The notes beneath the pieces were generated by a model. That model did no database searches. It saw only the letters and a program-made list of their open reading frames with translations, and was not told where the DNA came from. A stretch of DNA of 36,411 bases from a virus. The stretch is taken from positions 1-36,411 of the IMG/VR virus record IMGVR_UViG_3300047994_000253. One strand, given 5' to 3'. The translations under genes were made by a program, and so were the position numbers. This document shows, piece after piece, positions 8,101 through 35,455 of this stretch; position 1 is the first letter of the stretch; every line of letters begins with the position of its first letter.

Positions 8101-8580
8101 CTAGACAGATTCTTCTTTTTTCTTATCTTCGAACTTCCATTTAGATTGCAACTTTGTACCAGCCTGATCGACGAATTCATTCAGATTCAGCATCGTGATC
8201 GTACTCCAGTGAGGATCATCAGTCGGCACGTTACTCGGGTCAGTGTAATAAAAAGACTCCAAATGGTATTCGTACACTTTCTCCGCCACTTCGTCATCCG
8301 ACATACCAGACAATAAATCCTTAGTCATTTCAATGCACACCCGATAGGAATCAGCCTCTGTACAACACCCCAGCTTTCTCATCACATTCGTTGCAGGAAG
8401 AGCCTTTTCAGTGTTTTTCAGCAAATCTATCAAGTCTCTCTTGAGACGACCATCGACCAAGTCGGCGACGGCAGTAAATCTTGCGATTACCTGCCCACGT
8501 TTCGGAGCATGGCGACGAACATCGAAAAAGTGTTTGTCAAAATTAGTCTCATCAATCACCAACTCCGGGGCATTGGTCAT
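8101..8580 (-). CDS. Hypothetical protein, coupled to dnaE-C (159 aa)
   Basis: Mostly helical soluble protein. It contains LKRDLIDLLKNTEKALPATNVMRKLGC, a CIEMTKDLLSGMSDDEVAEKVYEYH helix and a Lys/Glu-rich end. No family recognised. Its ATG overlaps the dnaE-C stop as ATGA, so it is translated in fixed ratio with the polymerase fragment. That makes a replication accessory role conceivable but unproven. Confidence 0.6.
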   Translation of the reverse strand: MTNAPELVIDETNFDKHFFDVRRHAPKRGQVIARFTAVADLVDGRLKRDLIDLLKNTEKALPATNVMRKLGCCTEADSYRVCIEMTKDLLSGMSDDEVAEKVYEYHLESFYYTDPSNVPTDDPHWSTITMLNLNEFVDQAGTKLQSKWKFEDKKKEESV

Positions 8581-11183
8581 ATTTCTCCAATTGTAAACAT
8601 ATCATTGACTTCTTCGTCTGTGAGAACCCGATGTTTAGTTGCCGGGGCCGTCTCCGGCTTACGCATTACTACCAAACGATAGTCCTGGTCTTTATGTTTC
8701 GGAAGGTTGTGACGCTTGTGCCGAGGCGGCGACTCAAACGTATAATTCCGAAATGGTGGTTCTGGACGTATCAGCCTTATTTTAACTAAGTTACCAGCCA
8801 CCAGTTCTGGACGAAACCTTTCCAAATCTTCTGACCATACATTCACAAAACCAGCTTCACTGTTGGCATCTTCGACCCGCAACGACGCAAACGGATCACC
8901 CTTCTTCGTCGTTTTCAAATCAACCGACACAATCATCACCTCACACATTGCTGTCGTCGCATTCCTCGACTCTACATCCATTCGGAACGACTCGAAAGTA
9001 TGATCGCCCTTGTAATCCGGGCTCTTTTCCAATGGATGCGTCCAAACGAACCCGTAGAACTGCTTCTCGGCTTCCTCTTTGTTACACAGAATTTTTTCCA
9101 GGTCCGGCTCTACATCGTAAGACGTAGGCCAGAATTCCTCAAATGGGATCGGACCTTCGGCTACGTCCTTTTCTTTCCTGGCAAATGTATCGATACAACG
9201 CTTCCACTTCTTCTGCAATTTCACCAAAGACTTGTAACGCTCTTCTATAATCTCATCCTCCCCCAAAACTTGCTCATACCAATCGTTCAAGTTGACCGCA
9301 AGGAAATCCTTCTTCATAATCTCGAAGTCGTGTTCATTGACCAATCCCTTCAGTTCTTCCATCAGTTTCACCTGACTGTTTTTGTACCGTTGCCGACGTT
9401 CGTGGATTTTCTTGGTTGCATCCTTGTAGTGTTCAGAATAGAGATACAAGCGAACATGATCACCCTTGAAACAATCCAAGGATATCAACGCTTTGACGAC
9501 AGAAGCGTCTGTCCCAAACCTCTCCAAGAAATCCGTGATCCCCACATACGGCTGCCCTGCCACCACTCGTTTTGCCACTTCGGGACCAACACCCTTCAGA
9601 TTCCCAAACCCGAAGTACAATTTATTGTCAACAATGTCGAACGACTCCTTCGAATCATTCAAACTCAGTCGATTAACCTCGATGTTGCTTCTCGACGCCT
9701 CTACCTTGTACTCTTTCACCTTATCCGCATCATCAACGCAACTCAAAGTAGCGGCGAAAAATTCCAGAGGGTAATGGGCCTTCAGGTACAAAAGGCGGCT
9801 GGAGATCATCGTGTATGCAACCGCATGTGAGCGGTTAAAAGAGTAACCGCTAAATGCCTGAACGGTATCCCAAAGCTCTAGGATTTTAGCTTCTTCCCAG
9901 CCGAGGTTCTTCACCCCGTTGGTTACAAATCTTTCCTTGTATGACTTGAACTTCTCCTCATCCTTCTTCGAGATAGCTTTCCGGAGAGCTTCGCAGTCTT
10001 TCAGGGGAATGTTGCCAACGAAGTGGAGAACCTGCATACATTGTTCCTGGAAAATCATGAGACCATAGGTGTATCTCAAAGACTTTTCCAGCAATGGATG
10101 GATTTCGTACTGTTCCTGACCTCGTTTGCGAGCCGCATACCGTTCGGGTGCTTTTGCTGCCATCGGACCTGGACGATAAAGTGACGAATAAGCCACCAAG
10201 TCGTTGAAATTGTCAACGCCGCCGCTCTTGACCATCGCTCGGATACCTTCCGAGTCAAACTGGAAAATACACTTCAAATCAGCTTTCTTCGCTAGTGCAA
10301 TTGCCTTCTCGTCATTCAAATAACTTGTGTCAGACCAGTCTTTATTTCCTGGCTTTGCACATATGTTTTTGAGGCCGTGCCGTTCCTTGATGAACTTACA
10401 AGCCTTGGCAATCTGCATCAGGTTGGTGATCACCAGCAAATCGAACTTGATCAGGCCAACTGGCCCCAAATCCTGGCCGTGCAGACCTTCCACCCACGCA
10501 GAAAGCTGAGTTCCGTTCTTGTCCTTCACCAATGGCACGAAATCAGCAATTGGAACGCTGGAAATGATCAAACCACCAGCGTGCTTGCCCATCCCCCGGT
10601 TTCGATGGAGGAGTTTCTTGGCAGCCCTGGCCACATCTGGATTATCTTCGCAGTACTTCTTCAGGTCTGGATACTCTTCCAGAGCTTTATCCCAGGTCAA
10701 AGCCTTGCCATCATCATCCTTCAATCCTAACTTGGTAGTAAGATCAAGAATTTCCGACCTGGATTTCCCGTGAACACGAGCCATGTCGATAAGAGCGGAC
10801 TTGATTCCGAAAGAATTGTAGCTACCAATCGAACACACTTTATCGACACCATACTCCTTCGGTGCCCACACATTCTTCAGGTAGTCACGAACGAGTGGGT
10901 TGTAATCTGTGTCGATATCAGGGAATTCGCCATAAATATATTCAGGCTTCCCAGAATGATCGTAGTCAAAGACAATCCCTAAAAGATACGGGACAAGTAG
11001 GTTGTTTTCGTTCTTTTGGTGACGAATCTTCTTGTCGGCCATATCCAGGAAATACTGGAATTCATTCTGAGCATCGATTTCACGAATTTCATCGTTCAGC
11101 CGATCCTGATAATCGGCTGGATCAAGCCCAAGCCCCTTAAACCCCTGGTTGCAAAGCGAAATGAGTTTTTCTCGATCTGTCAT
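8577..11183 (-). CDS. dnaE: DNA polymerase III alpha subunit, C-terminal catalytic part (split DnaE)
   Basis: Replicative C-family polymerase lacking the PHP domain. The catalytic aspartates are present: FPDIDTDY with D89 and D91 (E. coli D401/D403) and GLIKFDLL with D248 (E. coli D555). Also conserved are HAGGLIIS, SLYRPGPM, YGLMIFQEQ, FSGYSFNRSHAVAYT and a helix-hairpin-helix region (GFGNLKGVGPEVAKRVV), followed by an OB fold (MIVSVDLKTTKKGDPFASLRVED). The tau-binding C-terminus of E. coli DnaE is missing; the last residues hold VNDMF, vaguely like the clamp motif QADMF. Residues 1-60 repeat a segment also present near the end of the N-terminal fragment (17039-18442), but without the GRGS motif. 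No intein sequence is seen at the junction. Start is an ATG with AGAGG inside a hairpin. Confidence 0.92.
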   Translation of the reverse strand: MTDREKLISLCNQGFKGLGLDPADYQDRLNDEIREIDAQNEFQYFLDMADKKIRHQKNENNLLVPYLLGIVFDYDHSGKPEYIYGEFPDIDTDYNPLVRDYLKNVWAPKEYGVDKVCSIGSYNSFGIKSALIDMARVHGKSRSEILDLTTKLGLKDDDGKALTWDKALEEYPDLKKYCEDNPDVARAAKKLLHRNRGMGKHAGGLIISSVPIADFVPLVKDKNGTQLSAWVEGLHGQDLGPVGLIKFDLLVITNLMQIAKACKFIKERHGLKNICAKPGNKDWSDTSYLNDEKAIALAKKADLKCIFQFDSEGIRAMVKSGGVDNFNDLVAYSSLYRPGPMAAKAPERYAARKRGQEQYEIHPLLEKSLRYTYGLMIFQEQCMQVLHFVGNIPLKDCEALRKAISKKDEEKFKSYKERFVTNGVKNLGWEEAKILELWDTVQAFSGYSFNRSHAVAYTMISSRLLYLKAHYPLEFFAATLSCVDDADKVKEYKVEASRSNIEVNRLSLNDSKESFDIVDNKLYFGFGNLKGVGPEVAKRVVAGQPYVGITDFLERFGTDASVVKALISLDCFKGDHVRLYLYSEHYKDATKKIHERRQRYKNSQVKLMEELKGLVNEHDFEIMKKDFLAVNLNDWYEQVLGEDEIIEERYKSLVKLQKKWKRCIDTFARKEKDVAEGPIPFEEFWPTSYDVEPDLEKILCNKEEAEKQFYGFVWTHPLEKSPDYKGDHTFESFRMDVESRNATTAMCEVMIVSVDLKTTKKGDPFASLRVEDANSEAGFVNVWSEDLERFRPELVAGNLVKIRLIRPEPPFRNYTFESPPRHKRHNLPKHKDQDYRLVVMRKPETAPATKHRVLTDEEVNDMFTIGEI

Positions 11184-14597: not shown

Positions 14598-15266
14598 TTA
14601 GGCGTCTGCCGTCACCGTTTCTTGGGGATTGCCGGCTTGTACTTCTCGTGGAGTTTCATTTTTAACACCACTATTCATATCCAAAATCCCGACGGTGTCA
14701 AGTGGTTTTGTGTTGTGATTGACTACCGCCCGGCAAAAATCAACTAGACTATCGTCCGAGAATGTGTTCTTGGCGTATTGAGCCATCAAAGAAACAAACT
14801 GAACATTTCCCTCAACGTACCCATTCGAGTTGTCGATCCGGTCCAACGAAGCCATGTCAGGTGTTACAGGTCGTTTGTTGCTCGTGTTTTTGGGCGTCTT
14901 CAATTCCCAACCTGTGTACGGGCAACGTCCATTCTGAAGTTCCCAAAGTTCTTTCAAATATTCCAAACTGATCTCCACATGTTTCCGGTTCGGATCGCCC
15001 TTCTTGATCCTGTGGTCACGGTCAGTTTTCTTAGCTCGACCCAAAAACACCCGGTACATAGACAAACCATCCTGTCGGTTGTCCGCTTTTATATTTTCCG
15101 GATGGGATCGTTTTTCAACAGGGATGTTGGCGAAAAGAGCCTTGCCAGCACACTTGCGTGAACAATAGACCGAACGCCCAGCTTTCCGGTTGCGTTCGAC
15201 CTCTGTGGTTCGGCGTTGAAATACCTGTTGGCAAACTGCACATGTCAGATCGGTCGTTGAAATCAC
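14598..15266 (-). CDS. HNH homing endonuclease (222 aa)
   Basis: The N-terminus carries a four-Cys zinc site (CAVCQQ, then YCSRKCAGK). The HNH core is WELQNGRCPYTGWEL, followed by ASLDRIDNSNGYVEGNVQFVSLMAQYAKN, typical of phage free-standing HNH enzymes that cut DNA to spread their own gene. The C-terminal 40 residues are low-complexity. I chose the GTG at 15266 (a GTG at 15272 is in frame) because GTGAGG lies five bases before it. Both starts and the ribosome-binding site lie inside the 15-bp stem at 15264-15308. It is inserted between the tmRNA and the 13674-14342 gene. Confidence 0.8.
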   Translation of the reverse strand: MISTTDLTCAVCQQVFQRRTTEVERNRKAGRSVYCSRKCAGKALFANIPVEKRSHPENIKADNRQDGLSMYRVFLGRAKKTDRDHRIKKGDPNRKHVEISLEYLKELWELQNGRCPYTGWELKTPKNTSNKRPVTPDMASLDRIDNSNGYVEGNVQFVSLMAQYAKNTFSDDSLVDFCRAVVNHNTKPLDTVGILDMNSGVKNETPREVQAGNPQETVTADA

Positions 15267-15308
15267 AAACACCTCACTTCCCAGTGATAGGAGAGTGAGG
15301 TGTTTGTG
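15264..15308 (-). promoter_or_regulatory. Hairpin sequestering the HNH ribosome-binding site, downstream of tmRNA
   Basis: Perfect 15-base-pair stem, CACAAACACCTCACT (15264-15278) with AGTGAGGTGTTTGTG (15294-15308), and a 15-base loop. On the minus strand the 3' arm contains both the GTGAGG site and the GTG start codons of the HNH gene. It begins about 20 bases after the tmRNA 3' end but lacks a T run, so it is more likely a translational block or RNA-processing site than a terminator. Confidence 0.7.
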
Positions 15309-15328
15309 GAATCGCTCAGATTCTTTAG

Positions 15329-15715
15329 TGGAGCCGCCGATTATCGCAAATCGGGTCTTCCATCCGCTTTGCCAGCACGTCTACATGCTTAGCCACATTG
15401 ATCAGAGTTCTCCACCAAAGGTTCAATTCAGGCAAAACCCTTGATGGACCAGCGGTAATCTTAGCCCAGAGTCAAGCCGCCCACTCTGAGCCGTAACAGA
15501 CGATTTGTGGGACACTCTCCAACGTCTGTTGGATCGGAGGTATCCCGGCTACCCAATCACTTAGGCAGCAACGGCGAAATCGGCCTTCTCGGCACCAACG
15601 ATTTCAAGTTTGTTCTTCTTTGCAGTTGAACGTTGAACGATTTTTTCGTGGCCCTTCGTTCACCCACGGCATGCTGCACTGGGTCACCGCATAGAATCGA
15701 ATCTAAATCGGCCCC
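15329..15715 (-). ncRNA. ssrA: Transfer-messenger RNA (tmRNA)
   Basis: tmRNA rescues stalled ribosomes and adds a degradation tag. The ends pair as a seven-base-pair acceptor, GGGGCCG (15715-15709) with CGGCTCC (15336-15330), one G-U. The 5' part continues GATTTAGATTCGATTC, then GCATGCCGTGGG...GGGCCACGAAAAAA, matching the conserved D-arm and first pseudoknot. The 3' part has GGCTAAGCATGTAGACGTGC, matching the conserved TAAGCATGTAG block. The tag frame starts at GCA (15623) and ends TAA (15561), reading AKKNKLEIVGAEKADFAVAA, with the usual hydrophobic Ala-rich end. The T-arm is CCGAT/ATCGG with an eight-base loop lacking the usual TTCRANY. CCA is not encoded (A then CTA). At about 387 bases the length is normal. 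No smpB is in this window. Confidence 0.95.
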
Positions 15716-15729
15716 ATGTCAACACTGGT

Positions 15730-15758
15730 ATATTACTTGCCAACTCCGTTTTCTGCAA
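15730..15758 (-). promoter_or_regulatory. Candidate promoter for tmRNA
   Basis: On the minus strand TTGCAG (15758-15753) and TAATAT (15735-15730) are separated by exactly 17 bases. The -10 box is 14 bases before the mature tmRNA 5' end, which leaves room for a short leader removed by RNase P. The hexamers match sigma-70 consensus at three and four of six positions, so this is tentative. Confidence 0.4.
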
Positions 15759-15786
15759 GCGATTTTCCAAAACTTCTTGCCTAGAT

Positions 15787-15802
15787 ACCTCCATCTGGAG
15801 GT
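15787..15802 (+). promoter_or_regulatory. Hairpin over the pspC ribosome-binding site
   Basis: ACCTCC / GGAGGT with an ATCT loop places the Shine-Dalgarno GGAGG in a stem five to ten bases before the ATG. The sequence TAGATACCTCCA starting at 15782 is repeated in sense orientation in the leader of the HNH gene at 18471-19271, where it also pairs with the ribosome-binding site. Confidence 0.5.
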
Positions 15803-15806
15803 TCTC

Positions 15807-15983
15807 ATGCTTACTCGTGATCCTTACAACGGAACCATCGCTGGCGTTTGTGCTGGCTTGGGAGAGTATTTTGGAATTGATCCTATATTCTTCCGAATTT
15901 CTTTCCTCGTCAGTTTTCTGTGCTTCGGCTTCGGAGTTCTTCCATACCTCATTTTCTGGCTTCTGATGCCCACCAAGGAGTAA
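15807..15983 (+). CDS. pspC: PspC-domain membrane protein (58 aa)
   Basis: The entire protein is one PspC domain: TIAGVCAGLGEYFGIDPIFFRISF followed by a hydrophobic hairpin ending LPYLIFWLLMP, which matches the family consensus GVCGGLAEYFGID and YLILWLIMP. PspC is an inner-membrane sensor of the phage-shock stress response in bacteria. Only the core domain is present, without the leucine-zipper tail of E. coli PspC, as in many stand-alone bacterial homologues. Start is the ATG at 15807 with CTGGAGG; the frame open from 15633 overlaps the tmRNA and is not used. It heads a two-gene plus-strand unit. Confidence 0.88.
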   Translation: MLTRDPYNGTIAGVCAGLGEYFGIDPIFFRISFLVSFLCFGFGVLPYLIFWLLMPTKE

Positions 15984-15989
15984 ATCGAA

Positions 15990-16931
15990 ATGTCCAAGAA
16001 GACCTTTATTGAATACCTGAGCGACAAAGGCATCACAGTCGAAAAACCCGTGATCACTCCTGTTGCTGATTATAATTCAACCGCACCATCCAAGCCTCAG
16101 CAAGGCAAGAATTCTGCTCCGTATACCAATCCAGGAACACCACCTGAAAAGTATCGTCCAAAAGACGACAAAAGCGGTTTTGCCCACAAAGGCAAATCCA
16201 ATTTGAAGTACGAGCCCGGCGTCACCGGCGTAGCCAAAGCTGGAGAAGGTGGAAAGAAACTCAATTCCTATCCACATGTAAAATCTGCAACGCCGAAATC
16301 CGAAGCATTCTTTAATGCAACAAAGGACATGAACATTGTTCAGTATGCCCAGTTCGTTGGGGAACAGAACAAGGCCGGCGACAAGAATGCCTCTCAGCCA
16401 GTCGAGTACATCAAATACACAACTTCTCTTGTAGCTGAAAATGCCAATTTGGCGACCAGTCTTGTACAAGAGGCCAAACGGCAAGGCGTTCTCAGCCTTC
16501 TTGTTTTCGAAGCTCTACAACAAGATGAAGCTGTTCAGACCCTGGTAGACATGATGGGCGACCCAGTTTTTGGACCATCACTTTGTCGTCGTCTCAGCCG
16601 GAAACTCAGTGAAGAAGCATCCCCGCCAGTCACACCCGAAGATGGTAGTGATGAGGAAGACCCAAACAAACCAAAAGACCCAAATAACCCGGAAGCTAGT
16701 ACCGACGATGAAGAAATCGATCCGAACGCACCACCTGACGATGCTCAGCCACCACCTGAAGAAGACCCAAACGCCCCACAAGACCCAAATGCTGCGGCGG
16801 CACCTCCAGGGATGCCACCAGGAATGCCACCACAACCTGGAGCAGTCGAGAACATGCTGAATGCATTATCAGACCATGCTTTGTTGCTTGAGGTGATGTA
16901 CAAGACGGTGGCCAAGAGAATCTACCGCTAA
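15990..16931 (+). CDS. Low-complexity acidic protein, probable virion/scaffold-like (313 aa)
   Basis: Begins MSKKTFIEYLSDKG, resembling the F-x-E-W-L start of several small genes in the window. A disordered Pro/Lys/Gly region covers about residues 20-100. A helical central domain follows (about 110-210; YAQFVGEQNKAGD, LATSLVQEAKRQGVLSLLVFEAL), then a very acidic Asp/Pro/Asn repeat (EEDPNKPKDPNNPE, DPNAPPDD) and PPGMPPGMPPQPG, and a final helix. The PPGMPP motif is shared with the protein at 33696-34229. Such composition fits a prohead core or internal virion protein, but there is no direct homology evidence. It follows pspC by six bases. Confidence 0.55.
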   Translation: MSKKTFIEYLSDKGITVEKPVITPVADYNSTAPSKPQQGKNSAPYTNPGTPPEKYRPKDDKSGFAHKGKSNLKYEPGVTGVAKAGEGGKKLNSYPHVKSATPKSEAFFNATKDMNIVQYAQFVGEQNKAGDKNASQPVEYIKYTTSLVAENANLATSLVQEAKRQGVLSLLVFEALQQDEAVQTLVDMMGDPVFGPSLCRRLSRKLSEEASPPVTPEDGSDEEDPNKPKDPNNPEASTDDEEIDPNAPPDDAQPPPEEDPNAPQDPNAAAAPPGMPPGMPPQPGAVENMLNALSDHALLLEVMYKTVAKRIYR

Positions 16932-17038: not shown

Positions 17039-18442
17039 TCAAGCCACTTTATCGAAAAGCTCCGAAGGAAGTGGCGGTCCAGAGAATCTAAGTTTCATTT
17101 GCTTCCCACCACGAGCCTCACTCATGAACCGGCTGAAAAGCAGATCATGTTCAATTGGGTCCACATCAGTGATACCCAGACAATAACAAAGTAGAGAGCC
17201 AGCAGCCGACCCACGGGCAGGACCGACGGCCTCACTACCATCTCCACCCCACCCCAGCAATTGCGGGCAAATTCTTCGAGCTTCGTCGGTCATCGCCTTC
17301 TGGATGAGGAAGTACGAACAGAAGTCCTTTCTGCAAATCAAGTCGTATTCTTCCCTGAGCCTCTTACTGTACTTCACTTGCCGTGGAATATCACGACTGA
17401 CGACCCCCTTCACGACAGCGTCCCAAAGTCGATTTTCACTGTCAGGAATTCTTGGCAACTTATTGCTACGATCCAGTTTGACGCCTTTGGCCATCCGGCA
17501 TATTTCAACTGTGTTCCTCTTGGCCTGCTTGAAAATGTCGTAGTCCACGGTGTCCTGGTAGTTGGCTTCCCACTTCAGGTTCATCTCATCTTCAGTCTTC
17601 ATCCAGAGATTTGGGTCTTGCAATTCGAACATATCGGCACCGTCGTTCTCAGCAATCGCCTTTTGGACATCCTGGATCGTCCTTCCCGTCTGAACCATCA
17701 GCATGAGTCTTTGGAATTCGCTGTCCTCTGGATCACAGAAGTGGGTATCCGTGGTCATGATGACCGGAATGTGGTATTTGAGGTGCATCTTCTGGATGAA
17801 GACGTTGTACGCCTTCTGCTTCGAGAAATCGAGCAGCATCATTTCCAGGTAGAACTTGTCCCCGAACATCGCCATGTACTTCAGTACCATCGCTTCGCCA
17901 GCTTCGTCGCCGCCCTGGTCGAACGCCTGCCCAATCTCAGAATTGTAACAACAACTGGTGAAAATGATGCCTTCTTTGAGGGCGAGTAGTTGTTCGTGGT
18001 TGACTCGTGGTCGGTAGTAGTATCCCTTCATCCAGGCAGCGGACGTGAGTCGGACGAGGTTGGAGTATCCGGTTTGGTTGTAGGCGATGGCCAGTAGGTG
18101 GTAGCTTTTGCGGAGTTTCTTGGCTTCGTCTGGAGAAAGTGATTTTGTGTATTGGCCCCATTCGTCTTTGTTGTCGTACTCGATCTGCATGGGGTTGACG
18201 TAAAGCTCGCACGCAAAGATTGGGTGGAGAGAACGCTTCATGAAATCGGGTGCTTTTTTGTCCTTTGAAGGATCGCAGGCACGGATTTGGTTGGGGACGG
18301 CTGACATAATGCCGTGGTCGCTGACACAAAGGTAATCTCCGTGTTGTTTCCACCGGCGGGCGTATTCGTCGGGTGTACCAAAACCGTCAAGAAGGCTGAA
18401 ATGGGTGTTAACTAATGAAGATGGAGTAGCTCCAAGCCACAT
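17039..18442 (-). CDS. dnaE: DNA polymerase III alpha subunit, N-terminal PHP part (split DnaE)
   Basis: Residues 1-270 are a PHP domain with most metal ligands in place: VNTHFSLLDG (H14, D19; the first His of the usual HxH is Asn12), SDHG (H43), ACELYV (E79), SYHLLA (H115), TSCC (C164/C165) and TTDTHF (D232, H234). It may therefore keep phosphoesterase or proofreading activity. The chain runs into the polymerase palm: YSKRLREEYDLICRKDFCSYFL, then VGPARGSAAGSLLCY (the GS motif, about 409-416) and ITDVDPIEHDLLFSRFM. It stops before the catalytic PDFDVDF motif, which is in the separate gene at 8577-11183, about 6 kb further along. The last 25 residues (SEARGGKQMKLRFSGPPLPS onward) are unlike DnaE. 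Start is the ATG at 18442. Confidence 0.9.
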   Translation of the reverse strand: MWLGATPSSLVNTHFSLLDGFGTPDEYARRWKQHGDYLCVSDHGIMSAVPNQIRACDPSKDKKAPDFMKRSLHPIFACELYVNPMQIEYDNKDEWGQYTKSLSPDEAKKLRKSYHLLAIAYNQTGYSNLVRLTSAAWMKGYYYRPRVNHEQLLALKEGIIFTSCCYNSEIGQAFDQGGDEAGEAMVLKYMAMFGDKFYLEMMLLDFSKQKAYNVFIQKMHLKYHIPVIMTTDTHFCDPEDSEFQRLMLMVQTGRTIQDVQKAIAENDGADMFELQDPNLWMKTEDEMNLKWEANYQDTVDYDIFKQAKRNTVEICRMAKGVKLDRSNKLPRIPDSENRLWDAVVKGVVSRDIPRQVKYSKRLREEYDLICRKDFCSYFLIQKAMTDEARRICPQLLGWGGDGSEAVGPARGSAAGSLLCYCLGITDVDPIEHDLLFSRFMSEARGGKQMKLRFSGPPLPSELFDKVA

Positions 18443-20339: not shown

Positions 20340-21944
20340 TTACCACTTCTTTTCGTATTCGTCTCGTGTGAGGGTCATCACGTCCTTTTCCGGATCATCG
20401 TGCCCGACACACATGTAGATGATTTCCACATCATGCTTATTTTTGGTGGTCAGGTAAACGTCATTTCCCCACAGGTAATTCACGGACATAATCGTGTCAC
20501 GAGCGTAAGGATCGTAAAGGGTTCTGCCATCCCAAACGTGTTCGAGGAGATAGTACCCCTTACCCTTGAAGTTCGGATCAACCAGCCTGATCTCTGGGAG
20601 CCCGCCATTGAGGTGTTTCTTCATCAAGCGTTTGCGAATCACCTTGGCGTCTTTTGACTCGACAACGTATTCGCCACTCGGCCTCTTTTTCCAGGCGAAG
20701 AATTCGTGTTTGTCGCAGAAATCTTGGTCAAAAAATTCGGAGATCAGGGTCATGTCGTCGTGGTATTTGCAGACCTCGAAAACCTTTTCCTTGCCCTTAC
20801 CCTTCTGGGTATCCCAGTTCTCCCGCTCACGCATGTCGGTACATGCGGCGTATTCCGGACCAAACCTACCTTTATTCCATCGGTCTTCAATTTCGAGAAG
20901 CATTTCCATGCCGACCTTGTATGGGTTCATGGAATACTTGGCGTTGGCCCCGCCGAGGACACCCATTTTGTGGATAGCGTACTCGAAAATACCTCCGTCG
21001 TCGGTTCCTGTACCAAGGGCCGAAAACCGTTTTTCAGCCATCATCTTGTGGTCGAACCAGGATGCAAAACCTTCGTTTATCGTCTTGGTTTTTCTCTGTG
21101 GATCGAAGTATTGAGCTTCATCGTAGATCATGGAAACAATGTCTGCTTGCCACATCTTGAGTGGTGCATGATCTCTCAGGTGGCCTAGAACGTCTCTGGT
21201 TGGCTCTTTGAACAAGCCAATCTCTTCTGCCATCTGGTTGCGTTTGATTGCCTCACGCTGCTCGTCTATCCACCATTTTGGATTCAGGTACGAATCCATG
21301 TACATGCGGTCTTTTGCAACAGGAATCCGGTACGGTTCCTCATGCGTAACCGTGTCACGAATTTTTAGGTCTTTCCTTTGTCTTCCTTCCCATGCCTTGG
21401 CTGGGTCGATGAGGGTTTCGAGGCAAAGGACTCGATCAATGAAGTCGAGAACCCGGTCCTGCCCGTACTCGGACATGTAATCTCGCATGACGGTCCCGTG
21501 TTGGGCCATCGTGTTGATCATGTTCCGGTTTGTGGGCTGGAAATAGATGTTGTTTTTGAAGAAGTGGTTGTGCCCAGTCGCATGGATGATGACAAGGATG
21601 TCGTCCAGCAGAGTGTTTGTGTTCAGACAATAGAGGAGGCAGGGGTCATTGTTGATGACCATTTCGTAAATCTTGTGTAGTCCGAATTCATAACCACGCT
21701 GCATCTCCTCGTATTCCATACCAAATCGCCAGTGTGGATACCGAGACGGAAAGCCGCCGTAAGATGCAACTTGTGACATCTCATCGCCGGTAAGGTGCTT
21801 CACTACGGTTGGGAAGAAATCCAAACCGAAATCACGACAGCCTTGGAATACCTGGGGAAAGTTTTTCATCACCCCCTTCGGTGTCGTAAGCCCCGGTATT
21901 CTTTGGTTCCCCACTAACAGTGGGCTGTTGATTTTGAAAGACAT
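20340..21944 (-). CDS. spoVR: SpoVR family protein
   Basis: Full-length member (534 residues; E. coli YcgB is about 510). Conserved SpoVR features visible: FFPTVVKHLTGDEMSQVASYGGFPSRYPHWRFGMEYEEM, YEMVINNDPCLLYCLNTNTLLDDILVIIHATGHNHFFKNN, and later the EGFASWFDHKMM segment. Named for a Bacillus sporulation gene, in other bacteria it belongs with PrkA (YeaG) and YeaH to a conserved stress and stationary-phase trio. Here all three stand together in the order prkA, yeaH, spoVR. Start overlaps the neighbourhood of the yeaH stop (three-base gap). The biochemical role of the family is not settled. Confidence 0.92.
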   Translation of the reverse strand: MSFKINSPLLVGNQRIPGLTTPKGVMKNFPQVFQGCRDFGLDFFPTVVKHLTGDEMSQVASYGGFPSRYPHWRFGMEYEEMQRGYEFGLHKIYEMVINNDPCLLYCLNTNTLLDDILVIIHATGHNHFFKNNIYFQPTNRNMINTMAQHGTVMRDYMSEYGQDRVLDFIDRVLCLETLIDPAKAWEGRQRKDLKIRDTVTHEEPYRIPVAKDRMYMDSYLNPKWWIDEQREAIKRNQMAEEIGLFKEPTRDVLGHLRDHAPLKMWQADIVSMIYDEAQYFDPQRKTKTINEGFASWFDHKMMAEKRFSALGTGTDDGGIFEYAIHKMGVLGGANAKYSMNPYKVGMEMLLEIEDRWNKGRFGPEYAACTDMRERENWDTQKGKGKEKVFEVCKYHDDMTLISEFFDQDFCDKHEFFAWKKRPSGEYVVESKDAKVIRKRLMKKHLNGGLPEIRLVDPNFKGKGYYLLEHVWDGRTLYDPYARDTIMSVNYLWGNDVYLTTKNKHDVEIIYMCVGHDDPEKDVMTLTRDEYEKKW

Positions 21945-21946
21945 CC

Positions 21947-23191
21947 TTAATCGTCCTCGAACATTTCCGTCTCGATACCAACCTCGCCGAACAGTTTCTT
22001 GAAGACATTGTTTATGGCTTCAAATTTACCGTCTTCATCGGCTCCAAAGCTGGGTTCCTTCCAGCCTCCGTTAATGTTGTCGTCGGAATCTTCCGGGCCA
22101 ACACTGACTGTCCTGATGTAGTGTCGGTCTAGCTTTTTCTCACGAACAGCCACATCAATGACCTTTTTAACACTGCTTGCGTAATCGTAAGACAAAACCT
22201 GAACCACCCCTATCATGTTCACAACAGACGGACCAAGTTTTTCAGCTATCGTTTCAACCATAACTGTATTATCTTGACCCCAATTATCGCCATCGGTGAA
22301 ATAGAACAAATAAATATTCCAAGCATGAGCAGGGAATCGAAACTCGATCAGTTCATCTGCCATAACAAATGCTGTAGAACATGTCGTGCCACCGCCATCA
22401 GAAAGCTCATACCAAGTCGTCTGATCGACCTCCCTGGCCTTGTTGTCGTGCCAGATGTAGGCCGATTGAACCTTCCCCTTGTACTGCCTCGCAATCAGCT
22501 TTTCAGTCCACCAAGAGATGTTCGATATAATCTCCCGCTTCTCCTCATTGACGGACCCTGATCCGTCTCGCATGAAGATAATGGCGGCGTTATTGGACGG
22601 AATTTTTATTTCCTTGCGTTGCCGATACCTTTTATCCGACTTGATCGGGGTAATGATGCGGATCGGTACGGCTATACCTGGTATCTCATGGAGCTTATCT
22701 AGTTCCCCATTCGATGCCATTCTCTTCATCGCCTCCGTCCACGTCCGACGGTTGTGCCGGAGTGACTCAGGGCCGTTAAGAGATATCGAGTTGTATCGAT
22801 ATTTGATATCTTCGAATGTCTGAATTGGCTTTGGCTTCAGATTAGGAAGTTTTAGTTCCTGCATCATGAGTTCGAGAACGTATTCTTCATCCACCTGAAC
22901 CTGAACGGCATTTCCGTCGTTATCTCCGCCTTTGTTGCCCTTTTCTTTTGGGTCGTCCTTGCCGATTACTTGGCCTTCTTTCGCTTTACCACGAGCCAGT
23001 CCCTCGTCGGATTCGCCGTGAACGAAGTGCGGCTGGTCAAGTTGTTTGATGGGAACGGTAAATACGCCGCCTTTGGACCTCTGCCCAGTCATTTTCCCAG
23101 ACTTGATTTTTTTACTTAAACCCCTTTTGACCAATTTGTCGATCTTGTCACGAAAGAGTTTGTGATCAGTTTCAATGCTCTTGTTTGCCAT
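21947..23191 (-). CDS. yeaH: YeaH/YhbH family protein (DUF444, VWA-like)
   Basis: Starts MANKSIETDHKLFRDKIDK at 23191; the longer frame to 23329 crosses the hairpin at 23214-23268 and prkA, so it was rejected. The N-terminal third has the family pattern (GLSKKIKSG, VPIKQLDQPHFVHG). The C-terminal part is a von Willebrand A-like domain with a MIDAS-type motif, FMRDGSGSV, and IYLFYFTDGDNWGQDN. At 414 residues it is close to E. coli YeaH. It is the usual partner of PrkA and SpoVR, and the gene order here repeats the bacterial cluster. Confidence 0.9.
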   Translation of the reverse strand: MANKSIETDHKLFRDKIDKLVKRGLSKKIKSGKMTGQRSKGGVFTVPIKQLDQPHFVHGESDEGLARGKAKEGQVIGKDDPKEKGNKGGDNDGNAVQVQVDEEYVLELMMQELKLPNLKPKPIQTFEDIKYRYNSISLNGPESLRHNRRTWTEAMKRMASNGELDKLHEIPGIAVPIRIITPIKSDKRYRQRKEIKIPSNNAAIIFMRDGSGSVNEEKREIISNISWWTEKLIARQYKGKVQSAYIWHDNKAREVDQTTWYELSDGGGTTCSTAFVMADELIEFRFPAHAWNIYLFYFTDGDNWGQDNTVMVETIAEKLGPSVVNMIGVVQVLSYDYASSVKKVIDVAVREKKLDRHYIRTVSVGPEDSDDNINGGWKEPSFGADEDGKFEAINNVFKKLFGEVGIETEMFEDD

Positions 23192-23213
23192 TATTATCTC
23201 TGATTTGGTTAAA

Positions 23214-23268
23214 CAGCCGGCACCCCAGTCCATCGTGCAACAGATGAGGTAGTTTAGGGTGCCGGCTG
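23214..23268 (-). terminator. Long-loop hairpin between prkA and yeaH
   Basis: CAGCCGGCACCC (23214-23225) pairs perfectly with GGGTGCCGGCTG (23257-23268), a 12-base-pair GC-rich stem with a 31-base loop, in the only sizeable gap of the triad. On the minus strand TTTAACC follows. It may be a partial terminator that lowers yeaH/spoVR expression relative to prkA, or an mRNA-processing site. Confidence 0.5.
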
Positions 23269-23282
23269 CTGTTCGAGCTACG

Positions 23283-25397
23283 TTACGAGTCCTTCTTGCC
23301 TGAGCCGCCTCGGGCAAAGATACTGGCAACGTGATTGAGAATGTCTGTAGCAGACTGGGCGTTGTAACCGTACCACTTGATCATTCGGGCCTTCAAAGAA
23401 TCGAGCTTAGCCTGTTGATCAGCGTCAACTACCATCGCTGCGTCAGACATGGCCGACAGACGAATGGTGTCCTTGATGTCATCGAACAATTTCGCTTCAA
23501 GAGCTTCTTTAAGCTGCTGGTTGGAATCCCAACGGAAAGTCTTGTTTTCCATCGCCAGATCGCCAATGAAGCTGCTGATCTCTCTTCGAAAATCATTAGC
23601 CCCGCCGTCAGGAATGTTGATCTTCCGTTCGATCTCTCGCATCAGCCGCTCATTCGGCTTCTCCATCTCCCCAGTGACTTGATTCCTGATCTTCGACTTC
23701 TGGTTCGATGCACGAACATTGTCGATATACTGTCCGCAAAGACGAGCAATCAAATCCTCGTCACCAACCATAGCCCTTTGCACTTCGTTGGTGATGGTCT
23801 TCTCGTACTTTTCCAGTGCGTATTCAACGCAAGTTAGGTAACGAGCAATTAGGTTTTTGTCCGTGATCAACGGGTAGTTCTTCAAACCCTCCTTGACCTC
23901 GTGCATGACCATGAAAGCGTTGATGTAGTCGTGGTGTTCTGACAGACAGTTCGAAATCTTGTCAATCAGATACCGGCACGAAATACCAACACTCAAGCCT
24001 TCTTCGGGATGCTTCATACGCATCTCGATTACCGCCTCTTCATTGTACCCTGGGATATAAAACCCATTGTACAACTCGGCCTTCTGAATCAAACTGATCT
24101 TGCCGCCAATGTCGTCTTCAAGGCGAGTCAGAATACACCAGAACGACCCCGTCTCGAATGTGTGCGGAGCGACGTGCTGTTTGACCTTCGAGAACTGATC
24201 TTTTACAACATCGTTCTCGTCTTTCCAGCGGGTGTTGTACGGAATGTCAATCTTGCTAGTTCGGTCTCGCAATGCTTCCATGAATTCATTGTTCTGGAGA
24301 CGCTTGTATTCAGCCGAGTTCGTGTGGCCGAGAATGAATTCATCGACATCAATCTGCGAGAATTTCTTGGGCTTGATGCTCTTTTCCTGGCTGGCCCCGA
24401 GAAGGTCGTAGAGGAATGCTACGTCGAGCTTCAACACTTCGATAAACTCGACAATGCCACGATTGGCGATGTTAAGTTCACCGTCGAAATTGAATGCTCT
24501 TGCGTCTGAATCTTTGCCAAAATGTGCGATCTTACGATAGTTGATGTCCCCAGTTAGCTCTGTGCTGTCCTGGTTTTTTTCATCCTTCGGCTGGAATGTC
24601 CCAATACCGATTCGATCCGACTCGCTGTGCGTCATTCGGACAACACGGATGTGCTTATCGACTACCTTGTCCCAGTCGCCATTGTATTTCTTGAGAAGCA
24701 CGTTCATGTAGGTCTTGCAGCACGGGCAAAGATTGCCCACACATCGCATGTCATACTGGCCGGTTCTCTCACATTCTGGCGTATTGTCTACCAATCGCTC
24801 ATTGATTTCTGCGAGGTATTCCTTGCGTTCAGCCACTGGAACCAGCTTGAGCGGCTCCTCATGCATCGGACATAGTTCTTCGGTCTGAATCGACGTGCCG
24901 TCTTCAACTGGCATGTTGACCCACTTGATCGTGGCCCAAAAGCCCTCATCTGATGCCGAATAGTCTTCCAGGCCACGCTTGATAGCACGAGCAATAGTAC
25001 TCTTTGCACTACCAACCGGCCCGTGCAGCAAGCAGACCCGACGCTCGCTACCGTAGTGACCGGCAGCACCCTTGATGAACTTCACCAGAGCCGCTTTTTG
25101 AGGTTCAAGACCTCGGATGGGAGGATCGGACTTGTCGAAGAAGAAATAATGCGGGATCATCTTCTTCTGGTACTCACGCATCTCAAAACCATGCGACATA
25201 ATCATGTCGTAAATCATCTGGAAAGATGTGCGAATAGTTTTCGGCTTTGAGTAAATCAAGTCCAGATAATCATCCCAGGTACCTTCCCAGTTAAGAGCCT
25301 GATACCTTTTCTGATCAAAGCATTTCTTGCGAAGTTTGCTTCGTGGGTGAACCATGCCTAACACGTCATTTTCCGTTTCTGTCTTTGCCTTTGCCAT
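23283..25397 (-). CDS. prkA: PrkA family serine protein kinase
   Basis: AAA-like N-terminal domain with Walker A CLLHGPVGSAKSTIARAI (E. coli YeaG: GPVGGGKS) and the family hallmarks MRGLEPQKAALVKF-like region and NRGIVEFIEVLKLDVAFLYDLLGASQEKSIKPKKFSQIDVDEFILGHTN. A C-terminal kinase-like helical region follows. Length is 704 residues against about 640 for E. coli YeaG; extra length includes a Cys cluster (CERTGQYDMRCVGNLCPCCKTY), possibly a zinc insertion. It probably works with the YeaH and SpoVR encoded downstream. Start has AAGGAGA. A phage copy might phosphorylate host targets or mimic starvation signalling; that is inference. Confidence 0.92.
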   Translation of the reverse strand: MAKAKTETENDVLGMVHPRSKLRKKCFDQKRYQALNWEGTWDDYLDLIYSKPKTIRTSFQMIYDMIMSHGFEMREYQKKMIPHYFFFDKSDPPIRGLEPQKAALVKFIKGAAGHYGSERRVCLLHGPVGSAKSTIARAIKRGLEDYSASDEGFWATIKWVNMPVEDGTSIQTEELCPMHEEPLKLVPVAERKEYLAEINERLVDNTPECERTGQYDMRCVGNLCPCCKTYMNVLLKKYNGDWDKVVDKHIRVVRMTHSESDRIGIGTFQPKDEKNQDSTELTGDINYRKIAHFGKDSDARAFNFDGELNIANRGIVEFIEVLKLDVAFLYDLLGASQEKSIKPKKFSQIDVDEFILGHTNSAEYKRLQNNEFMEALRDRTSKIDIPYNTRWKDENDVVKDQFSKVKQHVAPHTFETGSFWCILTRLEDDIGGKISLIQKAELYNGFYIPGYNEEAVIEMRMKHPEEGLSVGISCRYLIDKISNCLSEHHDYINAFMVMHEVKEGLKNYPLITDKNLIARYLTCVEYALEKYEKTITNEVQRAMVGDEDLIARLCGQYIDNVRASNQKSKIRNQVTGEMEKPNERLMREIERKINIPDGGANDFRREISSFIGDLAMENKTFRWDSNQQLKEALEAKLFDDIKDTIRLSAMSDAAMVVDADQQAKLDSLKARMIKWYGYNAQSATDILNHVASIFARGGSGKKDS

Positions 25398-34274: not shown

Positions 34275-34778
34275 ATGAACGATGCACCGGCTTTCTCTGG
34301 ATTTAGGAGCCTCCTGGACACCTGGGACGATCACTGCTTCTGGGAGACCCTAGACGACAACCTCAGCAACCTTCTTGATGGTCGTGGATACATCATGTTC
34401 TTCAAAAAGGAAAACGAGATATTCGGGGCTCCCGAAGAGAGTCGAATCATGTTTGCCAGGATGAAAACCCCTGAAAAACAAGACACCGACGACCTGATGG
34501 AGCCCGGCGGCTTTCTTGCTTTTAACCTGCTCAAATCTCTGATGGGAGATATGTCTCCTAATCTGTTTGGTCCAAAAGACCTGAAAAAGATCAAGATTAT
34601 CGACCGGGAAGACGCTGAGAAAAAACTCAAAAACAAAATCAAAGATGACGACAAGAAATCACCATCTGGTCACCCACTCCGAATGGTTATGACCAAAATG
34701 ATCAGAATCATACCTAACATGATGGGCGGACCAGAAGATGGCGGGCCTACAATGATTCGCCTCAAGGACAAAAAATAA
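34275..34778 (+). CDS. Hypothetical protein (167 aa)
   Basis: Begins MNDAPAFSGFRSLLDTWDDHCFWETLDDNL, with an acidic, aromatic N-terminal region, a Lys/Glu-rich middle (DLKKIKIIDREDAEKKLKNK) and a Met-rich end (MVMTKMIRIIPNMMGG). No family recognised. It is the first gene of a plus-strand trio, with GCAGGAG as ribosome-binding site, and its stop overlaps the next start as TAATG. Confidence 0.6.
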   Translation: MNDAPAFSGFRSLLDTWDDHCFWETLDDNLSNLLDGRGYIMFFKKENEIFGAPEESRIMFARMKTPEKQDTDDLMEPGGFLAFNLLKSLMGDMSPNLFGPKDLKKIKIIDREDAEKKLKNKIKDDDKKSPSGHPLRMVMTKMIRIIPNMMGGPEDGGPTMIRLKDKK

Positions 34779-35455
34779 TGAGTCTTCCATACAAAAAAGA
34801 TGACGGCAAAAGAAAATACCAATGTTTCGTCTGCGGCCTAGAAGACGAAACATTCGAAGGGTTCTCCAAGCACATTATTGAGGAACACGAAAAAGGTAGA
34901 GAGTACGTCCTTTGCCCGCTTGCCCGATGTGGGGCACCCGTCAGGGATTTGAAAGCCCACTTCGCTGCAAGGCATCCCCAGGAGACAGTCCCTGGCGGCA
35001 TCCCCCACAAAGCTATCGTTTGGAAAGACATGGGTGCCAAAAAGGGCGACAAAATGAAAACCAGGAAACCGAATTTCCGATCAGGAAGTTTGATTTCTGC
35101 TAAGAACCACGGCAAAGAAATGACCTACCGATCCGGATGGGAATGTGCAGTATACGAATGTCTCGAATCACTAAACGAAGTAACATCATACGCCGTTGAA
35201 CCGATTCGTATTCCTTACATGTTCAATGGCGAAATTCACGATTATTTGCCAGACATCCGTGTTTTTTACAACGATGGCGATGTGGAAGTCTGGGAGATCA
35301 AACCATCCAACCAGACTGCCGATGAGAAAAACCGGGCGAAGTGGGCAGCGGCGAAGGAATGGTGCAAGACCCGTGGATGGGGCTTCACTATTGTCACCGA
35401 AACTGGTATCGATAAGCTCAAGAAAATCGTTATTGATCGGAAACGTTCTTCGTGA
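34778..35455 (+). CDS. Zinc-finger PD-(D/E)XK nuclease, head-completion or TnsA-like (225 aa)
   Basis: The N-terminal half has two zinc fingers: CFVCGLEDETFEGFSKHIIEEH and CPLARCGAPVRDLKAHFAARH (Cys2His2 spacing). The C-terminal half has a nuclease core: YRSGWECAVYECLE (catalytic Glu), YLPDIRVFY (Asp) and VEVWEIKPSN (E-x-K), followed by a basic helix. The YRSGWE...LPD...EIKP pattern is that of phage T4 gp4-type head completion proteins and related TnsA-like enzymes. It may process packaged DNA ends. Translationally coupled to the preceding gene. Confidence 0.7.
   Translation: MSLPYKKDDGKRKYQCFVCGLEDETFEGFSKHIIEEHEKGREYVLCPLARCGAPVRDLKAHFAARHPQETVPGGIPHKAIVWKDMGAKKGDKMKTRKPNFRSGSLISAKNHGKEMTYRSGWECAVYECLESLNEVTSYAVEPIRIPYMFNGEIHDYLPDIRVFYNDGDVEVWEIKPSNQTADEKNRAKWAAAKEWCKTRGWGFTIVTETGIDKLKKIVIDRKRSS

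Follow-up and report, generated by a model that had tools for sequence, protein, structure and literature searches.

A phage-encoded one-piece tmRNA with paired D-loop and T-loop changes

Does a phage tmRNA gene whose T-loop lacks the consensus sequence still encode a working tmRNA? The question arises from a window of 36,411 nucleotides, positions 1 to 36,411 of IMG/VR virus record IMGVR_UViG_3300047994_000253, for which a preliminary description had proposed a tmRNA at 15329-15715 without stating its strand. These coordinates were exact for the mature body (387 nt, CCA excluded), and the gene lies on the minus strand. The covariance-model search that had been suggested returned a match of 15326-15715 to Rfam model RF00023 at 101.3 bits (E = 1.2e-38; curated cut-off 47 bits), extending over the full model (1-374 of 374). 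ARAGORN reported no tmRNA gene in the 36-kb window. The gene is colinear and in one piece, and does not have the permuted layout of RF01849, in which the 3' part of the acceptor lies upstream.

The acceptor, pseudoknot 1, tag frame and TAAGCATGTAG block described previously are all present (Table 1). G3-U70 and A73 give the acceptor alanine identity. The tag, AKKNKLEIVGAEKADFAVAA, has 20 residues, starts at a GCA resume codon, ends in FAVAA and is followed by TAA; upstream of the resume codon the window has a C (CAACU-GCA) where U is common in other tmRNAs. The usual, though not universal, combination of a TTCRANY T-loop and a GG D-loop is absent. The eight-base T-loop TTGCGATA indeed lacks TTCRANY, as had been noticed, and the noncanonical AG of the D-loop had been overlooked. 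In tRNA numbering, which is used here for elbow positions, the D-loop has AG for GG (A18) and U55 of the T-loop is replaced by G, with U54 and A58 kept. As described, CCA is absent from the gene, which has ACTA in place of ACCA at its 3' end.

Table 1. Features of the tmRNA gene and its surroundings in the window.
Feature	Position	Strand	Basis
One-piece tmRNA gene (ssrA)	15326..15715	-	RF00023, full length
Acceptor stem 5' strand GGGGCCG, partner CGGCTCC at 15330-15336	15709..15715	-	sequence; 7/7 pairs form
D-loop dinucleotide AG (most tmRNAs: GG)	15703..15704	-	
Pseudoknot 1, CGTGG/CCACG + TGAACGA/TCGTTCA	15634..15668	-	
Tag frame AKKNKLEIVGAEKADFAVAA + stop	15561..15623	-	translation
TAAGCATGTAG block, 3' side of helix 2	15381..15391	-	
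T-arm CCGAT-TTGCGATA-ATCGG; loop 15342-15349, G55 at 15347	15337..15354	-	
Strong hairpin directly downstream of tmRNA, probable terminator or processing signal	15264..15308	-	-34.5 kcal/mol, z = -7.7
HNH/endonuclease VII-like gene, downstream of tmRNA	14598..15272	-	PHROG 3322 endonuclease, E 2e-19
ORF with PspC domain, strand opposite tmRNA	15633..15983	+	PF04024, E 3.5e-21
DnaE-type DNA polymerase, split, N-terminal part	17039..18442	-	PHROG 405, Pfam PHP
DnaE-type DNA polymerase, split, C-terminal part	8577..11183	-	PHROG 405, DNA_pol3_finger

The tmRNA belongs to a shared locus. Among phage records, the window DnaE is closest, at 56% identity, to that of the uncultured phage LR756511 (595 kb), and tblastn of the window ORFs recovered many of the genes in the same order in LR756511 and IMG/VR relatives. 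PrkA, DUF444, SpoVR, DnaE, an AAA ATPase and the tmRNA make up the gene order common to the LR756511 huge-phage clade and the window, and the assignment of the window as a fragment of a huge phage is supported. Eight contigs have a tmRNA beside the DnaE region (the window, LR756511, G008, G010, G011, G022, G027 and L107). None was found in G002, G006 and G007, three relatives that do have this region, so the tmRNA is not essential to the phage group. BLASTN of the window tmRNA against phage records gave no match. In the seven syntenic tmRNAs that were compared, acceptor and T-stem sequences vary with every pair kept, and both stems of pseudoknot 1 form in all seven with different paired bases, indicating compensatory change. 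Readable tags in six relatives (ANPEFAMAA, VTNENFSMAA, GDTLRMAA, GETVRLAA, GETQFAMAA and GKSDLAMAA) are 8-10 residues long, with variable fronts and a hydrophobic-Ala-Ala end; the 20-residue window tag is thus long for the clade. Read by hand, the tag frame of the G027 tmRNA (L055) is off by one base, through either sequencing error or decay. An SmpB gene was found neither in the 36-kb fragment nor in the 595 kb of LR756511, and host SmpB must therefore accept the window tmRNA; G011, a 320-kb relative in which the tmRNA is present too, encodes SmpB (L059, G011 96449-96832). LR756511 also contains, besides its full tmRNA, a 137-nt RNA consisting of a tRNA-like domain only (2250-2386, L018 1501-1637; 50.4 bits), which has G3-U70 and a normal T-loop and resembles the inhibitory RNA of mycobacteriophage DS6A.

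The changes in the two loops of the elbow go together, an association that we tested on tmRNAs picked by their D-loop only. In the Anaerolineales, the order of the genome that carries the chromosomal tmRNA L064, the AG pattern was present in 23 of the 151 genomes sampled, and all 18 fetched genes that were readable to the 3' end had G55, in T-loops reading GGCAG, TGGCAG, TGCAA, TTGCGA, CTGCGA and similar. The GG pattern was present in 13 genomes of the order, with TTCRA in 13/13 (Fisher p = 5e-9 for AG/G55 versus GG/TTCRA, uncorrected for relatedness). In viral contigs G55 accompanied the AG D-loop in 16 of 17 readable tmRNAs, some of which are near-copies of each other. The sole exception (L209, 4158-4489) combines AG with a canonical T-loop; one of its acceptor pairs is mismatched, and it could be a chimera, possibly from assembly. 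L205, L207, L212 and L216 were left out as probable chance hits of the pattern, in which no tmRNA 3' end could be read; L205 gave no Rfam hit. With the selection reversed, the 5' end could be located in 62 of 80 viral tmRNAs with TTCRA. Of these, 61 read GG (six called by eye, the script having picked an adjacent base) and one was unclear. A second pair of positions, 54 and 58, covaries as well, as U54/A58 or G54/G58. Barends et al. reportedly described a functional contact between D-loop and T-loop in 2002, and may already have noted the association. The same pair of changes, AG with GGCGG, is found in a two-piece tmRNA of a rhizobium, Mesorhizobium, and G at this T-loop position is known from Caulobacter and a mitochondrion (Burks et al. 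2005, PMC1168896).

Because the T-loop change comes with a change in the D-loop, and this pairing recurs in chromosomal tmRNAs of Anaerolineales and of a rhizobium, the unusual T-loop is, as judged from sequence, a balanced variant in which A18 and G55 would take the place of G18 and U55, and not a product of decay. This recurrence also means that noncanonical loops do not exclude a tmRNA, and it speaks against the earlier suggestion that the odd T-loop alters maturation or the binding of EF-Tu and SmpB.

Eight-base T-loops are rare. The eight-base pattern occurred in 13 stretches of viral contigs, seven of them Rfam-confirmed tmRNAs (two of the seven identical), whereas the seven-base pattern gave at least 120; in 251 Chloroflexota genomes the numbers were one and 46, the single eight-base case coming from the seed genome of the sample. 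A sequencing error is unlikely, because the tmRNA of G008 at the same locus also has an eight-base T-loop (TTTCGATG), and because the D-loop change in the window matches its T-loop change. The G008 D-loop is GG. The two T-loops differ at position 55 and in the closing base, and the D-loop dinucleotides at position 18; with positions 18 and 55 both changed, these differences fit balanced change within the phage group. The first and last loop bases can pair in seven of eight distinct eight-base T-loops, so that a stem of six pairs with a six-base loop (TGCGAT in the window), in which the pentamer around C56 is kept, is the simpler description and probably the best one. A possible sixth T-stem pair has been noted in Dehalococcoides (Burks et al. 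2005, PMC1168896). With six pairs in the T-stem, the acceptor/T helix would grow from 12 to 13 pairs, and EF-Tu might bind it less well.

The missing CCA had likewise been proposed to affect maturation or binding. We rejected it as a defect: CCA is not encoded in any of the eight syntenic tmRNAs, and in tRNA maturation the host CCA-adding enzyme completes genes without an encoded CCA, so its absence is ordinary. Hairpins downstream of the tmRNA are also present in LR756511, G008, G010 and G022, and with the window hairpin they make the tmRNA look like its own transcription unit. Scans of the window found no sigma-70 consensus promoter and no T-run terminator.

A relative of the HNH/endonuclease VII-like gene directly follows the tmRNA in G010, and homologues of the PspC ORF, whose true start is probably near the domain, are found near the tmRNA in G008, G011, G022 and L107. 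For the protein encoded at 15990-16931, direct search gave no relatives in viral contigs, and weak homologues are present in the syntenic loci. The tmRNA sits between the two DnaE parts, which correspond to one contiguous frame in LR756511. The split falls just before the PDxDxD motif, and the C-terminal part seems to open with a degenerate repeat of the region before it. A split intein was considered, but the protein is contiguous in LR756511 and the matches overlap, which points instead to a split with partial duplication. DnaE insertions of ~0.4 and 1.2 kb at a common site (~residue 410) in L009 (11209-11627) and L012 (11167-12380) are possible inteins or introns. Elsewhere in the window, the PrkA kinase, DUF444 and SpoVR genes are consecutive (20340-25397) and kept across the phage clade, and a TnsA-like endonuclease domain accompanied by a zinc-finger-like part (34778-35455) is conserved in relatives.

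Since the elbow change is balanced and is found in some bacteria, the window RNA is likely to be a working one-piece tmRNA that would serve ordinary trans-translation with the SmpB, AlaRS, EF-Tu and CCA-adding enzyme of the host, which agrees with the probable function and own tag proposed before. It would be transcribed as its own unit and trimmed, receive CCA from the host enzyme and, given G3-U70 and A73, be charged with alanine. Host SmpB and EF-Tu would then bind the charged RNA and bring it into stalled ribosomes, where translation is predicted to resume on GCA and to add the 20-residue tag ending in FAVAA. The ribosome would be freed and the tagged product passed to a ClpXP-type protease, and the phage may gain by recycling ribosomes during infection. 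Counted against a working tmRNA were the lack of SmpB in the fragment and in LR756511, the C before the resume codon, the possible 13-pair acceptor/T helix, the three relatives without a tmRNA and the lack of a consensus promoter.

Other readings of the gene have to be weighed against these features. The phage RNA could be a decoy that occupies SmpB or ribosomes of the host and so prevents the host's own trans-translation, as tmRNA is inhibited by the DS6A RNA, which is a tRNA-like domain only (PMC4131195, PMC11915505); the 137-nt RNA that LR756511 has besides its full tmRNA fits this idea. Both the DS6A and the window RNA are phage-encoded and tmRNA-derived, but the former has no mRNA-like part and the latter is complete. 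Its resume codon, protease-type tag end and compensated pseudoknot 1 would all be superfluous in a decoy, which we regard as unlikely. It is similarly improbable that the elbow and long tag act apart from the host tmRNA, through a different SmpB, the lack of pseudouridine 55 or another protease fate. Without U55 that modification is impossible there, and the T-arm and tag are unlike those of the relatives; yet the tag end is ordinary, and the same elbow changes occur in Anaerolineales and rhizobium chromosomal tmRNAs that presumably perform ordinary trans-translation. Less probable still is a host ssrA copy that the phage took up and carries as a functionless, decaying passenger. Noncanonical T- and D-loops, the absence of the tmRNA from some relatives and the broken G027 tag frame would suit such a copy, but the locus is common to eight contigs, helices are kept despite different sequences, and the loop changes are balanced, not random.

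In structure the window RNA is a variant, found in a new place, and not a new kind of system. It shares G3-U70, helix 2, pseudoknots, resume codon, tag and TAAGCATGTAG with the standard one-piece tmRNA (RF00023, E. coli ssrA type), and differs in its AG D-loop, in having TTGCGATA for TTCRANY, in its 20-residue tag and in the lack of an encoded CCA. AG and G55 also mark the alphaproteobacterial two-piece tmRNA RF01849 (GGCGGTA in Mesorhizobium, GGCAGTA in phage L214), whose genes are permuted, whereas the window tmRNA is a single piece with U54/A58 kept. Among the Anaerolineales chromosomal tmRNAs, L064 is also one-piece, with an AG D-loop, an eight-base T-loop (TTGCGAAG) and no encoded CCA; it is a cellular gene with a different tag, DNNTSPAYAFAA.

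Phage tmRNAs as such are already known: tmRNA was counted in 402 of 18,146 phage genomes (PMC9004378), a 2025 database holds 79 unique phage sequences (PMC11915505), and a survey that used ARAGORN reported both tmRNA and SmpB from huge phages (PMC7162821). The window likewise belongs with very large genomes, but its tmRNA escaped ARAGORN and the fragment has no SmpB. ARAGORN reported a tmRNA in only two of the 19 AG-class loci tried, although it did detect L064; because most were missed, counts that rely on ARAGORN alone are too low in phages and Anaerolineales. What is new is the elbow variant in the LR756511 clade and the D/T-loop pairing. That one-piece A18-G55 tmRNAs form an overlooked structural class in phages and Anaerolineales, whose elbow gives a phage partial independence from the host tmRNA, for example by dispensing with pseudouridine 55 or through a different SmpB fit, is a speculative and rather doubtful extension. 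The association of D-loop and T-loop supports, on evolutionary grounds, a contact of position 18 with position 55 in tmRNA, and the shared locus offers a small family for tracing how a phage tmRNA is gained, lost and altered.
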